Both the position numbers and the translations under genes were made by a program. 64,000 bases of DNA from Desulfolutivibrio sulfodismutans DSM 3696 (lineage in GTDB: Bacteria; Desulfobacterota; Desulfovibrionia; Desulfovibrionales; Desulfovibrionaceae): assembly GCF_013376455.1 (NCBI RefSeq), contig NZ_CP045504.1, positions 1,343,501 to 1,407,500 on the forward strand. The letters are read 5' to 3'. This document shows, piece after piece, positions 1,452 through 11,968 of this stretch (position 1 is the stretch's first letter; every line of letters begins with the position of its first letter). The notes under the pieces were generated by a model. The model was not told where the DNA came from, ran no database searches, and saw only the letters and a list, made by a program, of their open reading frames with translations.

Positions 1452-1525
1452 GCGTCTCTCCTGCGGCTGCTCATCAGGCCGGAACCGCCACGCCCCGGCG
1501 ACCGCCCCGCAGGGCGGTTTCGCAT

Positions 1526-4338: not shown

Positions 4339-6507
4339 TTACTGCGCCCCGGCCGCCTGCCCCGGGACCATCTCCCGCAGCATGGCCTGGGCGGAACATT
4401 CCGATGTCCGGCGGTAGCTCTCCCACCACTTGCGATCCTTTTGCGTCACGGCCGTGCCCGCCTGGATGGCCGAGTCAAGCTCACGCCACCGCGCGTACCG
4501 CTGGCGCGGCGATTCCGGGAGCTGATGCACCGTGGCCGCCTGCCGCATGTCCTCGGCCAGCGCCGCCCGGGCCGTCTGTTCGGCCTCGGTGGCGGGTCTG
4601 GGCGTGGGCGCGTCCGTGGCCCGGGCCGCCTGCCCGGCCTCGCGCAGCATGGGGGTTTCGTGGGGGAGCGTGGGGGGCGGCAGCACGGTCAATTTGCCCG
4701 CCTTGGCCGCCGCGTCGTGCAGGATTTCCCGGGCAATGTCCTTCGTGGAGTGCGTTTTGCTGGAGGCCCGTAGTTTCGCCGTTTCTTCGGCCACGGCCTT
4801 TTTCTGGGCCGCCTTGGCCGCCGCGATCTCCTGCCGAGAAATGCCCGCCGTGGCGGGGTCCACCGCCCGGCAGATGAATTCCATCTCGCCCGAGGCCGCC
4901 TCGGCGAACACATACACGGCCCCCACGTCGGATTCGTCCAACAGCACCCGCACCCGCTGCCCGATGATCGGTCCCAGGGCGGCATGGATGTGCCAGCGCC
5001 CATCAATCTTGAGGCCCTTCTTGCGCACCGTGCGCCAGGAATCCCCGTCCGCCGGAGCGGAGAGCAGCACGTCCAGGGCGCGGGCGTCCGGCCGCGCCAC
5101 CGGCAACCGCCAGTCCGCCGCCACCTTCAAGGGAGACTTGCCGCCCAGCCCCTCGTGGGGATCACGGGCATAGATGTCTTCCGCCCAGCGGTCGCAAATG
5201 GCCTGGAAATCCTCCGGACTCATGTCCAGGGAGACGGTCTCCCCGGCCTTGCCCAGCCGCTGGGCAAACGACTTCCGGGCCTCGATGTCCTGGCGTTCGG
5301 CCACGTTATGGCCGATGTACCCTGGCAAAAGCTCGACCAGATCATGGGAGAATGTCCCGAAGGCCCGCTCCACATGCGGTTTTGCCTCGGGCGTGAACGG
5401 CGGGGCGATGCGTTGCGTGATGCCCAGGCCCAGCAGGGCGTCCGTGATGCGCCGGGACACATAGTCCGAGCCGTTGTCCGTCACCAGCTCCTCGGGCGCC
5501 CCCCAGGCCAGGACGGCCCGGCGCAGGCAGGCGGCCACGGCGGCGGCCGAGGACGTGCGGGAGACGTGGTAAACCACCCGACGCGAGTAAACGTCGATGA
5601 TCTGCACCACGTTGTGCCGCTTCCCGTCGGCAAGCATCACGTCGCCCTTTGTGCTGTCGATCTCCCACCGCTGATTGAGCCGCACAACGTCCGCCGAGGC
5701 CGATCCGAACGCGCACTGGTACGTGGAGCGCCACTTGTCCGGGTTGGAAATTTTAAGGAATGCCGAGGAGTTGGCGCGCTTCCAGGTTTCCACGAACCGT
5801 TGCAGGGCGCGCAGGCTGGGAGCCTCGGCCTCGCCGAACCGGGAGATCAACCCGCGCCGGATGTGCTTGGATGAGGCGTGGGGATGGTCCGTGAGCATGG
5901 CGGTGATGAACTCGGCCACCTCCGGCCGAGAGGCCAGTCCCGAGCCGCGCCGGTGTCCGTAGTTGCCCGCCAGCCGGGCCAGACCGCCGGTGGTGAGCGC
6001 CGTTTCCCAATTGCGCAGCGTCCCCGGGGAGACGCGGGGCACGTCCTCGCGCACGTCCTGGTCCACCGCAATCTGCCCCCGGCTGTACTGCGCCGCGAAC
6101 ACCGCCCGGGCCGTGGACGGGGCCAGCCCCGACGAGGCCAGAAACTGCTGGTAGGCCGCCAACACGGCCGCCTTGGCCGACGCCCGGCCCTTGGCCGTGT
6201 CATTTAAGCACACATACCGGGCCAGCCCGGACTGCCGCGCCGCCGTGGCCGCCCGCGCGGTCAGGTTCTCGTCCAGGGAGAGCCGCAGGGCCTCCATCCG
6301 CCCGGCCGTGGCCGCCTCCGAAGCGGCCACCCCGGCCAGCGCCACCCGCACGTCAGAGGGCAGGCTGTCCAGGCGGTACAGGCGGCGGCGTCCGCCCCGG
6401 CAGGTCACCTCGTCAAACGGCCAGGACTCGGTTTCCGCCCGCTTTTGCGCTGCCCGCTCTGTCACATGGAGCGCCTGCGCGATGTTTTTTGCCGTGACCT
6501 GGTCCAT
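4339..6507 (-). CDS. MuA-like DDE transposase
   Basis: A 722-residue transposase. Residues 1-55 resemble the Mu DNA-binding winged helix (AKNIAQALHVTERAAQKRAE, ending RLDSLPSDVR). The integrase-fold core holds D284 (WEIDSTKGD), D344 (LVTDNGSDY) and E380 (KPHVERAFGTF), the DDE triad. A Mu-type C-terminal region follows. Length is close to MuA (663). The enzyme nicks prophage ends and joins them to target DNA. The start ATG 6507 sits five bases from the first 96-bp repeat, which therefore forms its 5' leader on the minus strand. Confidence 0.95.
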   Translation of the reverse strand: MDQVTAKNIAQALHVTERAAQKRAETESWPFDEVTCRGGRRRLYRLDSLPSDVRVALAGVAASEAATAGRMEALRLSLDENLTARAATAARQSGLARYVCLNDTAKGRASAKAAVLAAYQQFLASSGLAPSTARAVFAAQYSRGQIAVDQDVREDVPRVSPGTLRNWETALTTGGLARLAGNYGHRRGSGLASRPEVAEFITAMLTDHPHASSKHIRRGLISRFGEAEAPSLRALQRFVETWKRANSSAFLKISNPDKWRSTYQCAFGSASADVVRLNQRWEIDSTKGDVMLADGKRHNVVQIIDVYSRRVVYHVSRTSSAAAVAACLRRAVLAWGAPEELVTDNGSDYVSRRITDALLGLGITQRIAPPFTPEAKPHVERAFGTFSHDLVELLPGYIGHNVAERQDIEARKSFAQRLGKAGETVSLDMSPEDFQAICDRWAEDIYARDPHEGLGGKSPLKVAADWRLPVARPDARALDVLLSAPADGDSWRTVRKKGLKIDGRWHIHAALGPIIGQRVRVLLDESDVGAVYVFAEAASGEMEFICRAVDPATAGISRQEIAAAKAAQKKAVAEETAKLRASSKTHSTKDIAREILHDAAAKAGKLTVLPPPTLPHETPMLREAGQAARATDAPTPRPATEAEQTARAALAEDMRQAATVHQLPESPRQRYARWRELDSAIQAGTAVTQKDRKWWESYRRTSECSAQAMLREMVPGQAAGAQ

Positions 6508-6512
6508 ATGTA

Positions 6513-6608
6513 CCGCTCGTTCCCTTGAAAGTTTCCCGTGCCCCCTGCTAGGAGGGGACTTGGCTATCGGAGTTGCTCAACCCCTGACCGCACAGGAGGC
6601 ACGGAAAT
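6513..6608. repeat. 96-bp direct repeat, copy 1 (leader of 61-aa ORF)
   Basis: This copy is 94/96 identical to 6948-7043. It starts CCGCTCGTTCCCTTGA and ends CAGGAGGCACGGAAAT, so it carries the ribosome binding site and the first bases of the start codon of the plus-strand ORF at 6607. An arm TTCCCGTGCC near its start can pair with GGCACGGAA next to the RBS, enclosing a smaller hairpin at CCCCCTGCTAGGAGGGG. A structured leader is inferred. Confidence 0.9.
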
Positions 6609-6792
6609 GGCTTTTTCAGATGATGCGTTACTTACTGTTGCAAAAGAAATTTTCCTTTCCAGGGCCGAACCTCGAAACTACGTTCAGAAATCAAAAAACG
6701 AAGACGAATATCTAAAACGAACACGTCAACTCGCTGATGATTTCAATTCGTTCTATCGCGCTCTTCGCGACAGACTGTCTGATGTACAGTAA
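6607..6792 (+). CDS. AT-rich small phage cargo protein, unknown (61 aa)
   Basis: ATG 6607 follows AGGAGG by six bases inside the end of repeat copy 1. The product starts MAFSDDALLTVAKEIFLSRA, is charged and helical, and ends FYRALRDRLSDVQ. It runs opposite to the early operon and is much more AT-rich than its surroundings, so it looks like a moron (late-acquired cargo). No family is recognised. Its last 50 bases overlap the convergent ORF at 6743-6931. Confidence 0.6.
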   Translation: MAFSDDALLTVAKEIFLSRAEPRNYVQKSKNEDEYLKRTRQLADDFNSFYRALRDRLSDVQ

Positions 6793-6931
6793 CCGTAAAA
6801 ACGGCTCCTGACTCTTCGTATCTTCTGTTTAAGGCGGCCAGCACAAGGTTGACCGCCTTGAAAATATTTTCCTCGACATCATACGTTTTCAGAATTTCAC
6901 TGACTCGCGTTCTCGCTTCTTCAAATTCCAT
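6743..6931 (-). CDS. AT-rich small phage protein, unknown (62 aa)
   Basis: ATG 6931 has AAGGAG about eight bases upstream. The product starts MEFEEARTRVSEILKTYDVE and continues ENIFKAVNLVLAALNRRYEE, a convincing amphipathic helical protein; the last 17 residues overlap the convergent ORF antisense. Its 5' flank runs directly into repeat copy 2, mirroring how muA abuts copy 1. Function unknown. Confidence 0.5.
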   Translation of the reverse strand: MEFEEARTRVSEILKTYDVEENIFKAVNLVLAALNRRYEESGAVFTVTVHQTVCREERDRTN

Positions 6932-6947
6932 CGCTCATCTCCTTTTG

Positions 6948-7043
6948 CCGCTCGTTCCCTTGATAGTTTCCCGTGCCCCCTGTTAGGAGGGGACTTGGCT
7001 ATCGGAGTTGCTCAACCCCTGACCGCACAGGAGGCACGGAAAT
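6948..7043. repeat. 96-bp direct repeat, copy 2 (leader of 122-aa ORF)
   Basis: This is the second copy of the 96-bp leader, with two substitutions relative to 6513-6608 (A to T in the TTGAAAG part and C to T in CCTGCTAGG). It supplies the AGGAGG ribosome binding site of the plus-strand ORF at 7044. The downstream coding sequences of the two copies are unrelated, so the repeat is a shared leader and not a gene duplication. Confidence 0.9.
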
Positions 7044-7412
7044 ATGCTTTCAGCAGAATTCGTCAGAGATACTTTGTATAATTTCACTATGTATGCTTTT
7101 AGCGACTTCAACGCCGATACAAAGAAAACACCTTTTAAGCAAAAAGCGTGGAATTCAGTCTTGGAAATGCTTGAAAAAGAATCATTCATAACCGCAGAAG
7201 AAGCCACCATGCTTCCAAAGAAAAAAAAGAAAGCGTTACATGACATCATAATTGCATACATTACTTTTCTTTCTCTTCCTGATTGGCCGCCATTTCCGCA
7301 GGATTTTCTTGACGGTTCTTCCGAAAGGAAACTAAATACTCCAATTCTTCGGTATATGAGGACGCATTCTGACCAGATTTTAGACTATTACAGACAAGCT
7401 CACGGATATTAG
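7044..7412 (+). CDS. AT-rich small phage cargo protein, unknown (122 aa)
   Basis: ATG 7044 lies directly after repeat copy 2, with GGAGG eight bases upstream. The 122-residue product starts MLSAEFVRDTLYNFTMYAFS, has a Lys-rich central segment (LPKKKKKALHDIIIAYITFL) and ends MRTHSDQILDYYRQAHGY. It is AT-rich and on the strand opposite to the early operon, so cargo acquired by the phage is likely, for example exclusion or anti-defence. No family is recognised. Its 3' part overlaps a convergent ORF. Confidence 0.65.
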   Translation: MLSAEFVRDTLYNFTMYAFSDFNADTKKTPFKQKAWNSVLEMLEKESFITAEEATMLPKKKKKALHDIIIAYITFLSLPDWPPFPQDFLDGSSERKLNTPILRYMRTHSDQILDYYRQAHGY

Positions 7413-7464
7413 GAAGGCAAGGGAACTGTTGTCGTGCGGCCGCCCGGAAAGCATCCTCGTGCAT
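7261..7464 (-). CDS. Small phage protein, possibly remodelled at its 3' end (67 aa)
   Basis: ATG 7464 overlaps the upstream stop (TGATG) and has AAGGAGG ten bases upstream, so translation probably starts here. The product MHEDAFRAAARQQFPCLPNI runs into sequence antisense to the AT-rich cargo ORF (7261-7412). I infer that insertion of the cargo replaced the original 3' end, leaving a hybrid C-terminus. No function is recognised. Confidence 0.45.
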   Translation of the reverse strand: MHEDAFRAAARQQFPCLPNIRELVCNSLKSGQNASSYTEELEYLVSFRKNRQENPAEMAANQEEKEK

Positions 7465-7670
7465 CACGCCGCCTCCTTCCTTTTTCCCAGGTACTCGACC
7501 GGACACCCGATCTGCTCCAGGTAGTTGCGCACCACGTCCGCCCGACGCCTCCCGGCCAGAAAATGCGACACCAGACTGTGGTCCACGCCGACCGCCCGGG
7601 CCACATCCGAAATCTTGGTCCCGCGCAGCACCAGCCACGCCTTGACCTTACGACCCTTCACGTCCGCCAT
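7464..7670 (-). CDS. Small HTH regulator (Ner/Cro-like)
   Basis: The 68-residue protein is almost entirely a helix-turn-helix: ISDVARAVGVDHSLVSHFLA at about residues 20-40, then GRRRADVVRNYLEQIGCPVE. Size and position as an early regulator next to the repressor resemble Ner of Mu, which dampens early and repressor transcription, but sequence alone does not prove that role. It overlaps the upstream gene by 23 bases. Confidence 0.75.
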   Translation of the reverse strand: MADVKGRKVKAWLVLRGTKISDVARAVGVDHSLVSHFLAGRRRADVVRNYLEQIGCPVEYLGKRKEAA

Positions 7671-8112
7671 TGATCCTCTCCAAAAGTTCGCGCTTTTTGC
7701 GGCCGCGCCGCCGCTCCTCGACCGCCAGCCGCCCGTACTCGTAGACCGCCGCGCCCTCGGGCGTGAGCCCCAGCCACCCGGCGGGCAGCGCCGCCTGGAG
7801 GATACCCGCGTCGCCCAGGATGAGCCCCAGAGCCGCCAGATAATCCAGCGGGATGCGCCGTTCGGCGGCCTTGGACTCGGCCGTCCAATTGTTGATGTGA
7901 TGGATGCTGATGGAGTCGCCCGTCAGGCGGGAGAGTTCATTGGCGACGTATTCCCGGGTGAGGCCCGAGCGGTCCAGGGCGGCCCGAAACGCCTCCTGGA
8001 CGGCATCCCTGCGGCGCAGGCTCCCGGCCGGAAGTCCGGCCGTGGGCAGGCTGGTCAACGGCAGGGTGAGCTGCACCAGGCCCTTGTCCAGATTTCGCAC
8101 ACATTTTGCCAT
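7648..8112 (-). CDS. First early-operon protein, probable DNA-binding regulator
   Basis: The 154-residue product is the first gene leftward from the operator region. It has a central helical segment, TREYVANELSRLTGDSISIH followed by HINNWTAESKAAERRIPLDY, resembling DNA-binding domains seen in the same place in other Mu-like phages, and a basic C-terminus (EERRRGRKKRELLERI). Being first in the operon, it may be directly controlled by the repressor. Family name not certain. Confidence 0.65.
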   Translation of the reverse strand: MAKCVRNLDKGLVQLTLPLTSLPTAGLPAGSLRRRDAVQEAFRAALDRSGLTREYVANELSRLTGDSISIHHINNWTAESKAAERRIPLDYLAALGLILGDAGILQAALPAGWLGLTPEGAAVYEYGRLAVEERRRGRKKRELLERINGGREGS

Positions 8113-8158
8113 TGCCCGCCCCTGAAATTCGGTCTAAAAACCGGGTGAAGTGGTCAGG

Positions 8159-8176
8159 TTTGTGACCCGTCACAAA
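8159..8176. promoter_or_regulatory. Palindromic operator candidate 1
   Basis: TTTGTGACCCGTCACAAA is a perfect 18-bp palindrome (8-bp arms, 2-bp centre) in the divergent region between the repressor and the early operon. It is 47 bases upstream of the first early gene, a suitable place for an operator. Confidence 0.65.
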
Positions 8177-8185
8177 GACTTTTGG

Positions 8186-8220
8186 ACAAACTTTCGTGAG
8201 TTGTCAACACGAAAGTTTGT
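8186..8220. promoter_or_regulatory. Palindromic operator candidate 2
   Basis: A perfect inverted repeat: ACAAACTTTCGTG, a 9-base spacer, then CACGAAAGTTTGT. The spacer contains TTGACA on the minus strand (8207-8202), a possible -35 for the early promoter that a bound repressor would block. A weak plus-strand promoter for the repressor (TTGGCA at 8237, TAAAAT at 8262, 19-base spacing) lies just beyond. Confidence 0.7.
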
Positions 8221-8280
8221 TTCGGGCTTTCAAAAGTTGGCAAGCTGCGGTGGGCATTCTGTAAAATCTATTATCCCGGC

Positions 8281-9036
8281 ATGTTAGAGAAAAATATGAA
8301 CGATAAAACCCCTTCGGGCTTGCCTTCGGGCTTGCAGGCGGAAAGCCCGAACCAAGAAAAGTTTGCCTCACGTCTGCGGTCAAAGCGGGAAGAGTTGGGT
8401 TTGACCCAGCAAGATTTGGCAACAAAGATAGGGGTTAGTCTGACGTCCATTCAGAATTATGAGGCCGGACGCATCCCGCGTGGAGAGCACCTCATTGCCC
8501 TTTCCAGAGAGTTATCATGCTCAATTGATTGGATTTTAACAGGGGATACGTCGCTCTCAACGCCAAAAGGCAGCCAGGAGGCCGACCAAGCGCCAGCAGA
8601 AGACGTACAGAGAAGTGGCTACACCCTGATTCCAAAGGTAAAAGCAAGGCTGAACGCTGGAACCGGAAGCCTGGAGACGAGCGCGGAAACCATAGGCCAT
8701 TATGCGTTCAAGACACAATTCCTCAAACGGAAAGGAAACTCCACGAGAATGGTCCTCATGGACATCCACGGCGACAGCATGAATCCAGTATTGGAAGATC
8801 GAGACACTGTATTGATTGACGAAAGTCAAAACGAAATACTATCCGGCTGCATGTTCGCTGTCGGAGTCGATGACGCGGTATTTGTCAAATACGTGGATTG
8901 TGAGCCAGGAATGCTGATTCTGCGCAGCCGTAACGAGCGTTACAAGCCCATCGAAGTTCCCATGACCGGCGATCTGGCGGACACCGTCCGCATCATCGGC
9001 CGCGTGGTCTGGTCCTGCCGGGAGTACGGCGGCTAA
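8281..9036 (+). CDS. LexA/CI-like phage repressor with S24 self-cleavage domain
   Basis: The 251-residue protein has an XRE-type HTH at about residues 35-90 (LGLTQQDLATKIGVSLTSIQ) and a C-terminal S24 peptidase-like domain. An Ala-Gly pair in KARLNAGTGS is a candidate autocleavage site. The nucleophile is the Ser of HGDSMNPVL and the general base the Lys of AVFVKYVD. It therefore resembles SOS-inducible repressors and not the Clp-controlled Mu repressor. Start 8281 has no clear RBS and could be leaderless; ATG 8296, with a weak AGAGAA, is an alternative. It is divergent from the early operon. Confidence 0.88.
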   Translation: MLEKNMNDKTPSGLPSGLQAESPNQEKFASRLRSKREELGLTQQDLATKIGVSLTSIQNYEAGRIPRGEHLIALSRELSCSIDWILTGDTSLSTPKGSQEADQAPAEDVQRSGYTLIPKVKARLNAGTGSLETSAETIGHYAFKTQFLKRKGNSTRMVLMDIHGDSMNPVLEDRDTVLIDESQNEILSGCMFAVGVDDAVFVKYVDCEPGMLILRSRNERYKPIEVPMTGDLADTVRIIGRVVWSCREYGG

Positions 9037-9039
9037 CCG

Positions 9040-9232
9040 TCAAAACTATCCGTCGCAACCGCGCCAAAAATTCAAAACTAAACGTCGTCGGCGTCTTCAC
9101 GCGCCAGTCCATCGCGCCCCCGGCCCTTCACCCCGAAACCCGCACCATTAGCCGGTTTTCGTCCCGCTATGTCCCGCTTCCTCCCGGCATATCCCGGTTT
9201 CCCCGCTAGTCAAATCTATGTGTCACGGCACA
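9040..9232. other. Prophage end with three transposase-binding-like sites
   Basis: TCAAAACTATCCGTCG (9040), TCAAAACTAAACGTCG (9072) and TCAAATCTATGTGTCAC (9210) share one orientation. Two are 32 bp apart and the third lies about 140 bp away at the outer side, which mimics the L3-L2-L1 layout of Mu attL. Between them is a run of TCCCG motifs at about 10-bp spacing (9151-9197). On the minus strand the outer edge would begin TGTGCCGTGACAC or TGCCGTGACAC, with the TG expected of Mu-type ends. Confidence 0.6.
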
Positions 9233-9541
9233 ATAAATCAGGGGGGTGCCTTACGCACGATGACGTTCTGCTGACTCTCCGATCCTCCAATAGCTTTATA
9301 TCATAGAATTATTTTTTCTCGACATCGCCCCGGCGTTTCAGGCATCCTGCCAATGGGTCAGGTGAATCACATGGGTGGTGCGATCTGGGGGTTTGTCAAC
9401 GGGGAGCTTCCTGCTGGTTCACAGTGTTCCCGACCACCCCGGCATGGGTGGTGGTTACCTAAGCAAAATCAAAACGTAGTTGATATCTATCTTTGCAGAT
9501 GCTTCGATTTGAGCGTCATATTGTGAAGGCAAGGTGACTAA
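9233..9541. other. Non-coding flank of prophage end
   Basis: I see no gene here. The stretch shows a direct repeat CATGGGTGGTG (9370 and 9443), the second copy forming a hairpin with ACCACCC at 9434. It becomes AT-rich before the abi gene and contains an AAGGTG ribosome binding site for it. Confidence 0.5.
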
Positions 9542-10705: not shown

Positions 10706-11968
10706 GAGACCGCTGCACAATCCTCTGATGTCGTTACGGAATTCTCTCGAAAGGTCTCGGTCGTCTGTTTCCGCCGTCGTTTAGCCGACAGCGCTGATCT
10801 TGTTTCACCTTGAGGCGGCGTTCGTCACTCCTTAGCGTAAGTGTTCCTCAACATCCCGCTTTGAGCACCGCTTTTTTCAAGTTGAAAGCCATAGCGTTGA
10901 GTAAAAATTCAAGTTCAACCTTGGCTACCCCCAGGTAACGCGTCCGGAAGAAGCCATAACCTCTTTTGAGCGTTCCGAAAGCCCGTTCCACCCTCGACCG
11001 GACGCTGCTAACTTGACGATTTGCCGCTTTTTCGGCGGGGTTCAGCGCACGGTTGCGAGCGGCCTTATGCATGATGCCGTCGGCAAGTCTCCGAGCTTGG
11101 AGCACATGCCTGTTCAACTGGCTGCTGTATCCCTTGTCCGCATAGATGCGGCCCCCTGGCATGGGGCCAATCTCATCAAGAATATCCACGAATTCCTGCG
11201 TATCCGAACGGTTGGCGGGCGTGACATGGCCGCCGAGGAGAAAGCCGTCCCGGCTGTCCGTGGCCGCATGGACTTTGTAGCCGTAATAAGCCCGGTTCCC
11301 TTTGCGCAACCAGGCCGCATCGGCGTCATCGGAGTAGCTGATGGTTACGTCCGACGCCTCGTCGTCATCTTCCTCGCGATCTTCGGGAAGAATATCGATT
11401 ACTTTGAGGGGGCGGCGCGAGGAGGTGATGACGCTCGCGTCCACGATGGCTCCTTCACGTACCAGTAAGCCGCGCCGCTGGAGTTGATGGTTGAGTTTGT
11501 CCAGAAGCCGCTTCAAGACGTTTTTTTCAAGCAGGCTCTGCCGAAACCGGCAAATGGTCGAGGAATCGGGCACCTCGTCATGATCAAGGGAAAGGCCCAC
11601 GAATCGGACAAAGGACAACCGATCGTACAAGCATTCCTCCACCGCCGCGTCGCTCAGGTTGTACCACCTCTGGAGCAGAAGGATTTTAAACATCGGCAAC
11701 GGTGCATATGCAGGATTACCAACGGCATTGACGACTCGGCTGAGCTTTTTTCGAAGAAGCTTCTCAAACGGCTTCCAATCAATGAGGCGATCAATCTCAT
11801 CCAGAAAGCATTCCTTGTGCCTGCGATGGGACACGACGTAGTCGGCAATACCGGGCTTTTTGGAATTGCGCTCGCTCATGATCGCCTCCATCATTTTTGA
11901 TGGAGAAAATATAGCATAATTGCCTAAAATTACAATAGAATTGTGCCATTTTCCCGTGCAACGGTCTC
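10706..11968. mobile_element. IS5-family insertion sequence, intact (1263 bp)
   Basis: The ends carry imperfect inverted repeats, GAGACCGCTGCAC at 10706-10718 and the complement of GAGACCGTTGCAC at 11956-11968 (12 of 13 matching). The identical pentamer GGCTT flanks both sides (10701-10705 and 11969-11973), fitting a 5-bp target duplication. The single transposase gene is full length. The GAGACC...TGCA end is typical of IS5-related elements. Intact ends suggest a recent insertion. Confidence 0.88.
10848..11879 (-). CDS. IS5-family DDE transposase
   Basis: The product is 343 residues from ATG 11879, chosen for GGAGG five bases upstream over the in-frame ATG 15 bases earlier. It has the DUF772 N-terminal domain (PMFKILLLQRWYNLSDAAVE, VPDSSTICRFRQSL). 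The catalytic core follows with Asp in GAIVDASVITSSRR, Asp in RIYADKGYSS and Glu in VRSRVERAFGTLKRGYG. All catalytic positions and the C-terminus are intact. It acts on the terminal repeats at 10706 and 11968. Confidence 0.95.
   Translation of the reverse strand: MSERNSKKPGIADYVVSHRRHKECFLDEIDRLIDWKPFEKLLRKKLSRVVNAVGNPAYAPLPMFKILLLQRWYNLSDAAVEECLYDRLSFVRFVGLSLDHDEVPDSSTICRFRQSLLEKNVLKRLLDKLNHQLQRRGLLVREGAIVDASVITSSRRPLKVIDILPEDREEDDDEASDVTISYSDDADAAWLRKGNRAYYGYKVHAATDSRDGFLLGGHVTPANRSDTQEFVDILDEIGPMPGGRIYADKGYSSQLNRHVLQARRLADGIMHKAARNRALNPAEKAANRQVSSVRSRVERAFGTLKRGYGFFRTRYLGVAKVELEFLLNAMAFNLKKAVLKAGC

Follow-up and report, generated by a model that had tools for sequence, protein, structure and literature searches.

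A leader sequence at the ner-muA junction probably marks a slot for exchangeable small genes in Mu-like phages of the Desulfovibrionaceae

Why does a Mu-like prophage carry almost the same 96 bp twice, each time directly in front of a small gene, when the two genes have no sequence in common? The question is raised by a 64,000-nt stretch of the genome of Desulfolutivibrio sulfodismutans DSM 3696 (NZ_CP045504.1, positions 1,343,501 to 1,407,500 of the forward strand; the whole stretch is referred to as the window), in which the repeat sits between muA and a ner-like helix-turn-helix (HTH) gene and belongs to the early region of a Mu-like prophage whose repressor is of the S24 type. The features of this region, in window coordinates, are the following.

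4339..6507, minus strand: muA-type transposase gene, 722 aa, neighbour of the slot (Pfam rve 6.9e-16, Mu-transpos_C 8.3e-9)
6513..6947, plus strand: 435-bp unit, missing in the sister prophage (alignment of the two prophages)
6513..6608, plus strand: leader copy 1, preceding ORF1
6525..6554, plus strand: promoter-like blocks of copy 1, TTGAAA, an 18-nt spacer and TGc-TAGGAG, conserved across leaders
6533..6547, plus strand: left arm of the inverted repeat of copy 1, within the promoter-like spacer
6593..6607, plus strand: right arm of the inverted repeat of copy 1, holding AGGAGG and extending to the start codon
6607..6792, plus strand: ORF1, 61-aa cargo, a predicted three-helix protein for which no family was found
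6743..6931, minus strand: 62-aa ORF in the early (muA) direction, overlapping the 3' end of ORF1 (no family match in Pfam, PHROG or PADLOC)
6948..7043, plus strand: leader copy 2, preceding ORF2 (TTGATA 6960-6965, TAGGAG 6984-6989, arms 6968-6982 and 7028-7042)
7044..7412, plus strand: ORF2, 122-aa cargo
7464..7670, minus strand: 68-aa ner-like HTH gene, the other neighbour of the slot (Pfam HTH_3 2.3e-4, under the cutoff; phrog_1468, transcriptional repressor, 3.7e-6)
7648..8112, minus strand: 154-aa transcriptional regulator gene of the early operon (phrog_2345, 1.1e-18)
8281..9036, plus strand: S24-type phage repressor (Peptidase_S24 1.3e-17, HTH_3 7.9e-16)

The repeated leader and the 435-bp unit

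The two leader copies are identical at 94 of 96 positions, as a preliminary description of this DNA had reported, lie 435 bp apart from start to start, and form by far the longest repeat in 4500-9500, where the nine other repeat families measure 20-34 nt at 71-88% identity. The same description had each copy ending at the start of a plus-strand ORF, and this is the case: the ATG of ORF1 (6607-6609) shares the final two bases of copy 1 and that of ORF2 (7044-7046) lies immediately 3' of copy 2. The two ORFs, said to be unrelated, indeed gave no match to each other in protein comparison. Regarding the opposite edge, which was described as abutting the start of a minus-strand gene, the wording fits muA, whose start codon (6505-6507) is 5 bp from copy 1, and is only approximate for the 62-aa ORF, whose start (6931) is 16 bp from copy 2. 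The base composition of the cargo departs from that of its neighbour in the manner of morons, with G+C contents of 0.38-0.41 (ORF2 0.38, ORF1 0.41) against 0.70 for muA; that of the 62-aa ORF is 0.45. A terminator-like site (6844-6860) follows ORF1; two such sites were found in 6350-8300, and shuffled sequence gave 2.8. A minus-strand ORF (10848-11894) past the prophage on its repressor side reads by eye like an IS transposase.

A third copy of the leader occurs in the same genome, 2.1 Mb away, within a second Mu-like prophage (the sister prophage) with the gene order muA, one leader, ORF2 and HTH gene. Its leader is identical to copy 1 at 96/96 positions, the DNA from ORF2 through the HTH stop codon agrees with that of the window at 418/420 positions, and the 154-aa gene at 414/442. 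The alignment of the two prophages has a single clean 435-bp gap between the leader repeats, and the 435-bp unit is therefore a real unit of insertion or deletion; the earlier proposal that such a unit can be deleted or swapped agrees with a sister prophage that lacks exactly one. ORF1 has one copy in its own genome and none in the other loci fetched for comparison, and tandem cassettes were seen at the window locus alone among the loci examined. The near identity of the two copies and the sister prophage without one unit would also suit a plain recent tandem duplication without function, a reading that is nonetheless very improbable, given that many phages retain diverged, covarying leaders at this site in front of different cargo (see below).

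The two resident prophages have diverged strongly in the N-terminus of MuA (~6360-6466), in part of the ner-like HTH gene (~7547-7666) and in the operator and repressor N-terminus (~8107-8630), the remaining DNA of 5800-9070, the 435-bp unit apart, being mostly 90-100% alike per 40 bases; judged from this alignment, parts of the immunity region seem to have been exchanged separately between them. A third, distant muA of this genome (G000:C1:840453-842486, 27% identity) had no leader found upstream. The IMG/VR contig 2901954164_000005 (loci L006, L008, L011 and L200) was not counted as independent because it reads like the sister prophage.

Relatives without cargo show where the insertion lies. 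In L009, a metagenomic relative with a muA 88% identical, the stop codon of the HTH gene and the start of muA overlap, with nothing between; L010 has, by reading, a short gap between HTH gene and muA and no leader; in the phages HS6 and MuM16-1 the repressor/ner gene and the transposase gene overlap, and in phage RC1 a short gap follows a hypothetical gene. Since the ner and muA genes overlap or adjoin in relatives, the cargo is an insertion at the ner-muA junction; it lies, as morons do, between genes that are adjacent in L009, L010, HS6 and MuM16-1, and is oriented against the early operon. Small ORFs in the early direction with Shine-Dalgarno-like (SD-like) sequences are frequent between the HTH gene and the cargo. 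One viral locus, L105, has an extra plus-strand gene (~7800-8470) between muA and the leader, with a membrane-anchored look by eye.

Leaders and cargo in related phages

The decisive check, named beforehand, was whether the leader precedes different ORFs elsewhere, and it does so at the same place in other phages. Diverged leaders were found at the ner-muA junction in 15 genomes of 11 genera, which we take to belong to the Desulfovibrionaceae, and in viral contigs. Out of 53 muA-upstream regions 17 bear a leader, 14 detected by score and three by eye (G039, G022 and, the weakest, G174), and none was found in the other 36, either in the scan or in a looser-score rescan of all 53, which added none. 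G174 scored just 5.4 in that rescan, so that score alone fails to separate leaders from the rest. Pattern searches independent of muA gave matches in 7 of 348 genomes of the order and 4 of 282 of the family, each of them by its position a known leader beside muA, and the reversed-pattern controls gave 1 and 0 matches. As a DNA query against 288 genomes, the window leader matched only a 24-nt chance stretch outside its own genome; no relative was found, at that sensitivity, by blastn of the repeat region against phages, blastn of the cassettes against plasmids or tblastn of ORF2 against phages. Among viral contigs, four of six matches to a TCCGG-type pattern are leaders, and of the 72 viral muA loci scanned (from 80 kept) seven have a leader, three of these being new (L129, L130 and L135), and 65 have none.

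Several candidates were rejected. L005 is a chance match of 24 nt inside an apparent regulator gene (by eye), L059 was likewise set aside as chance, and L102 and L103 fall within a coding stretch read by eye as terminase. High inverted-repeat scores without leader anatomy were obtained for L086 (10.6), L049 (9.9), L143 (9.8) and three loci at 8.9, and in the looser rescan for L076 (10.2), where the inverted repeat lies, by eye, inside the HTH gene.

Rfam 15 gave no match over the window leaders at the gathering score, and the Rfam matches in the other loci searched are hammerheads, away from the leader. As a separate observation, the early strand of these Mu-like prophages repeatedly carries type II hammerhead ribozymes (RF02276), at the following positions among others.

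Window 1461-1525, minus strand: one hammerhead
L004 2084-2148, 2629-2693 and 2973-3037, minus strand: three hammerheads
L046 2988-3053, plus strand: one hammerhead

Hammerheads are also present in L100, L105, L129 and L056. The sister prophage has three in all, and in G259 and G264 one is located within the ner-muA slot itself. A literature search, drawing on sources available in part, returned no paper on hammerheads recurring in Mu-like prophages.

Regarding the cargo, G259 and G264 have ORF2 homologues (~40%) in this position, preceded by a diverged leader, and the leader of G269, 95% like that of G259, precedes an unrelated 139-aa ORF. Comparison of the 23 cargo proteins that reach 30 aa (20 proteins in 13 groups, then extended by L129, L130 and L135) gave 16 groups without cross-match at E 1e-3, two of which, IMG56 and G178, are doubtful; G200 and G022 (20 and 15 aa) lay outside this comparison. 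Leaders 93-95% alike precede unrelated cargo in the pairs G259/G269 and G224/L105, as do those of G155c, L100 and L101 (85-90% alike) and of L129 and L130 (71/77 identical). Conversely, related cargo stands behind leaders only 58% alike in G224/L100 (cargo 57%) and 65% alike in G269/L105 (31%, E 1.5e-18); in G268/G174 the leaders are 68% alike and the relationship of the cargo is weak (27%, E 4e-5). From these two patterns together it follows that cassettes swap. No convincing plus-strand cargo follows the leaders of IMG56 and G022, and behind intact arms G178 and G200 (loci L092 and L084) have only short or interrupted ORFs of 36 and 20 aa, perhaps representing decaying cargo.

The preliminary description suggested exclusion or anti-defence functions for such cargo, and the searches did not bear this out. 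No cargo protein among those searched matched Pfam above the cutoff, PADLOC gave weak matches only (best E 0.0044), and the sole strong PHROG match was that of the L129 cargo to phrog_22129 (1e-10, unknown function), the others being weak (E 0.0019 or worse); each cargo protein was compared with some or all of these libraries. ORF1 is modelled as three helices; for ORF2 the best AlphaFold model reached pLDDT 86.6 (the other four 52-68), and fold searches with it returned nothing at E<=0.001. No anti-CRISPR family appeared among the Pfam, PHROG and PADLOC matches. ORF1 and ORF2 have no HTH family match, and the layout is not that of acr-aca, the ner-like HTH gene being on the other strand and the plus-strand repressor lying beyond two opposite genes. 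An integron cassette was rejected, as TIGR02249 gave 19 sub-threshold matches in the genome and no integrase above the cutoff. By analogy with phage Fc02 (see below), exclusion would be a candidate role for the cargo, as would counter-defence.

Taken together, the leader probably marks a slot for accessory genes (morons) between ner and muA in Mu-like phages of the Desulfovibrionaceae. Towards muA the slot would be bordered by a constant element, the leader of ~75-92 nt, which would supply promoter-like blocks and a ribosome-binding site (RBS) to any small ORF downstream. As its reading direction opposes that of the early operon, the cargo would be expressed in the lysogen. The window would hold two tandem cassettes, one of which may be deleted or swapped by homologous exchange between leaders.

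Leader anatomy and the strand of the hairpin

Read on the cargo strand, the leader consists of a TTG block (-35), a spacer that is also the left arm, an extended -10, a loop, and a right arm that holds the SD sequence and runs up to the start codon. TTG is present in 17 of 20 leaders and TA follows after 17-18 nt in 17 (both in 15, with three leaders lacking each); TG precedes TA in 14 of 20. The set of 20 omits the near-identical WIN2, G000b, G264, G269 and L104, the last being the same as G155c. The loop carries AACC in 16 of 20 leaders and 11 of 14 clusters, a number reached by 0 of 1000 shuffles (mean 4.2). The -10 block of the window leaders, TAGGAG, is weak, and a consensus promoter scan of 6350-8300 found none, so that it is the conservation of the blocks across leaders that points to promoter activity. 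Thus, the idea of a portable promoter and 5'UTR placed between muA and the regulators holds as regards a portable 5' unit for cargo, the promoter part of it being left without a hit in the consensus scan.

That a leader segment can pair with the RBS was also part of the preliminary description. In copy 1 the pairing exists, with 13 Watson-Crick pairs between the arms, and is imperfect on the plus strand, where two C.A mispairs occur. The proposed covariation check was positive at the sequence level: in 14 leaders the own arms pair with -336 kcal/mol against -264 when permuted (sd 14; 0 of 20,000 permutations; 5e-5 inside the CCGG group), and in 20 leaders with -497 against -366 (sd 18; 0 of 20,000), in permutations that ignore kinship among leaders. 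The own partner arm is not always the best one, ranking 1 to 12 of 14 in the smaller set, and double changes that keep a pair can be read in the close leaders G259/G268 and WIN1/IMG56. The 14-leader sets used for covariation and RBS opening predate L100, L101, L105, L129, L130 and L135.

What the arms do may first be considered on the cargo RNA, where a fold-back in the style of T4 I-TevI would protect the cargo by confining translation to RNA that starts at the embedded promoter. As the left arm is the promoter spacer, it would lie 5' of the predicted transcript start, and the RBS would be hidden solely in read-through RNA, an arrangement that matches that of T4 in the available part of the account (PMC2988022). 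By computation, opening the RBS takes 10.0 kcal/mol in read-through RNA; RNA that begins at the predicted start needs 4.1, and shuffling the left arm lowers the cost to 5.1. The RBS is harder to open in read-through RNA in 14 of 14 distinct leaders (p=1.2e-4; the energies were calculated for the 18 leaders known at that stage, and the test used the 14 distinct ones). However, the C.A mispairs weaken exactly this helix and the folding z-scores are weaker on the cargo strand, so that fold-back protection is regarded as possible but rather unlikely. The RBS hairpin claimed earlier for the cargo RNA is thus retained for read-through RNA only, the RNA of the opposite strand pairing better both by mispairs and by fold stability; by these two measures the pairing is not maintained on the mRNA strand, as it would be in a fold-back leader.

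The asymmetry between strands is as follows. Read on the cargo strand, the mispairs of the 20 leaders comprise 31 C.A and 3 G.U, and the C.A positions become wobble pairs when the early strand is read. The early strand is favoured by 12 of 14 leader clusters and the cargo strand by none (p=5e-4 in a sign test that takes clusters as independent), and without the central SD column the ratio is 19:3. Mean folding z-scores are -2.8 on the cargo strand and -4.2 on the early strand, which folds more strongly in 16 of 20 leaders (p=0.001); for the two window copies they are -1.3 and -2.2 on the plus strand and -2.9 and -3.3 on the minus strand. In G174 neither strand folds better than its shuffles (z +0.8 and +1.3). 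The leader of G022 has lost its SD and has no clear -10 and no cargo, while its stem is intact, and the stem is therefore not kept solely for cargo translation.

These observations, together with the frequency of the loop motif (AACC/GGUU) above shuffles, favour a hairpin working on early-strand RNA, where it would either tune or stabilise the muA mRNA or act as a cis-antisense element that turns cargo off at induction. On that strand the same sequence would fold into a stronger stem-loop that in most cases lies directly upstream of muA and has complementarity to the cargo mRNA at its 5' end. Against this, the leader stays beside its cargo in G039 and L105, ~215 and ~850 nt from muA, and thus follows the cargo; the GGUU motif is often predicted to be paired, for which reason a kissing-loop form of antisense was rejected; the SD constraint together with G+C drift could yield part of the asymmetry; and the sign test rests on the independence of the clusters. 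An early-strand role is accordingly considered plausible, if somewhat short of evenly poised.

Alternatively, the arms might be half-sites of a DNA operator for a phage regulator (the ner-like HTH protein, the 154-aa regulator or the repressor), as the left arm occupies the usual operator place between -35 and -10 and HTH genes are adjacent. The loops of 23-49 nt (17 leaders) show no obvious helical steps, however, the arms vary in length yet remain matched, and a mispair asymmetry is unexpected for DNA, which makes an operator unlikely.

The stem may be used on both strands, the direction of its action being suggested by mispairs and folding energies, and an early-message role, perhaps antisense to cargo, merits weight equal to that of fold-back. 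In its most elaborate form, the leader would be an antisense switch that works across phages and independently of the cargo: a stable stem-loop in the early lytic message would be complementary to the cargo 5' end including the RBS, induction would silence the exclusion or defence gene of the lysogen before it harms its own phage, and the same arms would block translation of fortuitous read-through. This combined scheme is put forward as speculative and is thought improbable as a whole.

Known systems and the meaning of the slot

Morons, promoter-led accessory loci and fold-back leaders are already known; a covarying portable leader marking one slot across many Mu-like phages was not found in the open-access literature searched. 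Morons and regions of genome plasticity of Mu-like phages have been described (Cazares 2014, PMC4378225), and in the available part of that work they are, as here, small AT-rich genes between genes adjacent in relatives, some being expressed from the repressed prophage; inspection of their flanks revealed no common recombinase target there, whereas here the conserved leader forms a constant border. In the phage Fc02, plasmid-borne expression of gene 10, which follows ner, and of olg1 on the opposite strand led to the exclusion of superinfecting phages (PMC9936078). Small genes at the ner side of the early operon thus occur on both strands there, one opposite the early operon, as in the present case; the portion of that report at hand describes no leader family.

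In archaeal viruses, too, one upstream regulatory sequence is common to unrelated small genes and served as discovery bait (PMC11065993); the accessible sections concern diverse anti-defence genes with archaeal promoters, early in the lytic cycle, and describe no covarying hairpin. The BstA/aba system resembles the leader in having a short element that overlaps the start of a prophage defence gene, but aba is, in the text available, tied to one protein family (PMC8585504), whereas here the cargo changes. Hairpin leaders are found on T4 I-TevI, e and soc, and for I-TevI the promoter is placed so that only the longer RNA hides the RBS, according to the part of the source available (PMC2988022).

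A fold-back combined with a stable stem-loop on the opposite strand is known from RNA-IN/RNA-OUT of IS10. Compared with T4 and IS10, the present leader is portable across unrelated genes and its pairing fits the opposite strand better.

The entry of variable genes into Mu-like phages, as for morons, has been called mysterious in the accessible part of one account (PMC4378225). With a leader on one side and a ner-like gene on the other, the slot would offer a concrete route, namely homologous exchange between shared borders. The leader would also serve as bait for small genes without a family, with 16 unrelated groups here (two doubtful) as candidate exclusion or counter-defence genes, paralleling the shared regulatory sequence of archaeal viruses as far as the available text describes it (PMC11065993). 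The strand asymmetry of the hairpin in turn raises the question of how such genes are switched off when the prophage is induced; if the antisense reading were true, any new ORF arriving behind the leader would inherit antisense control.
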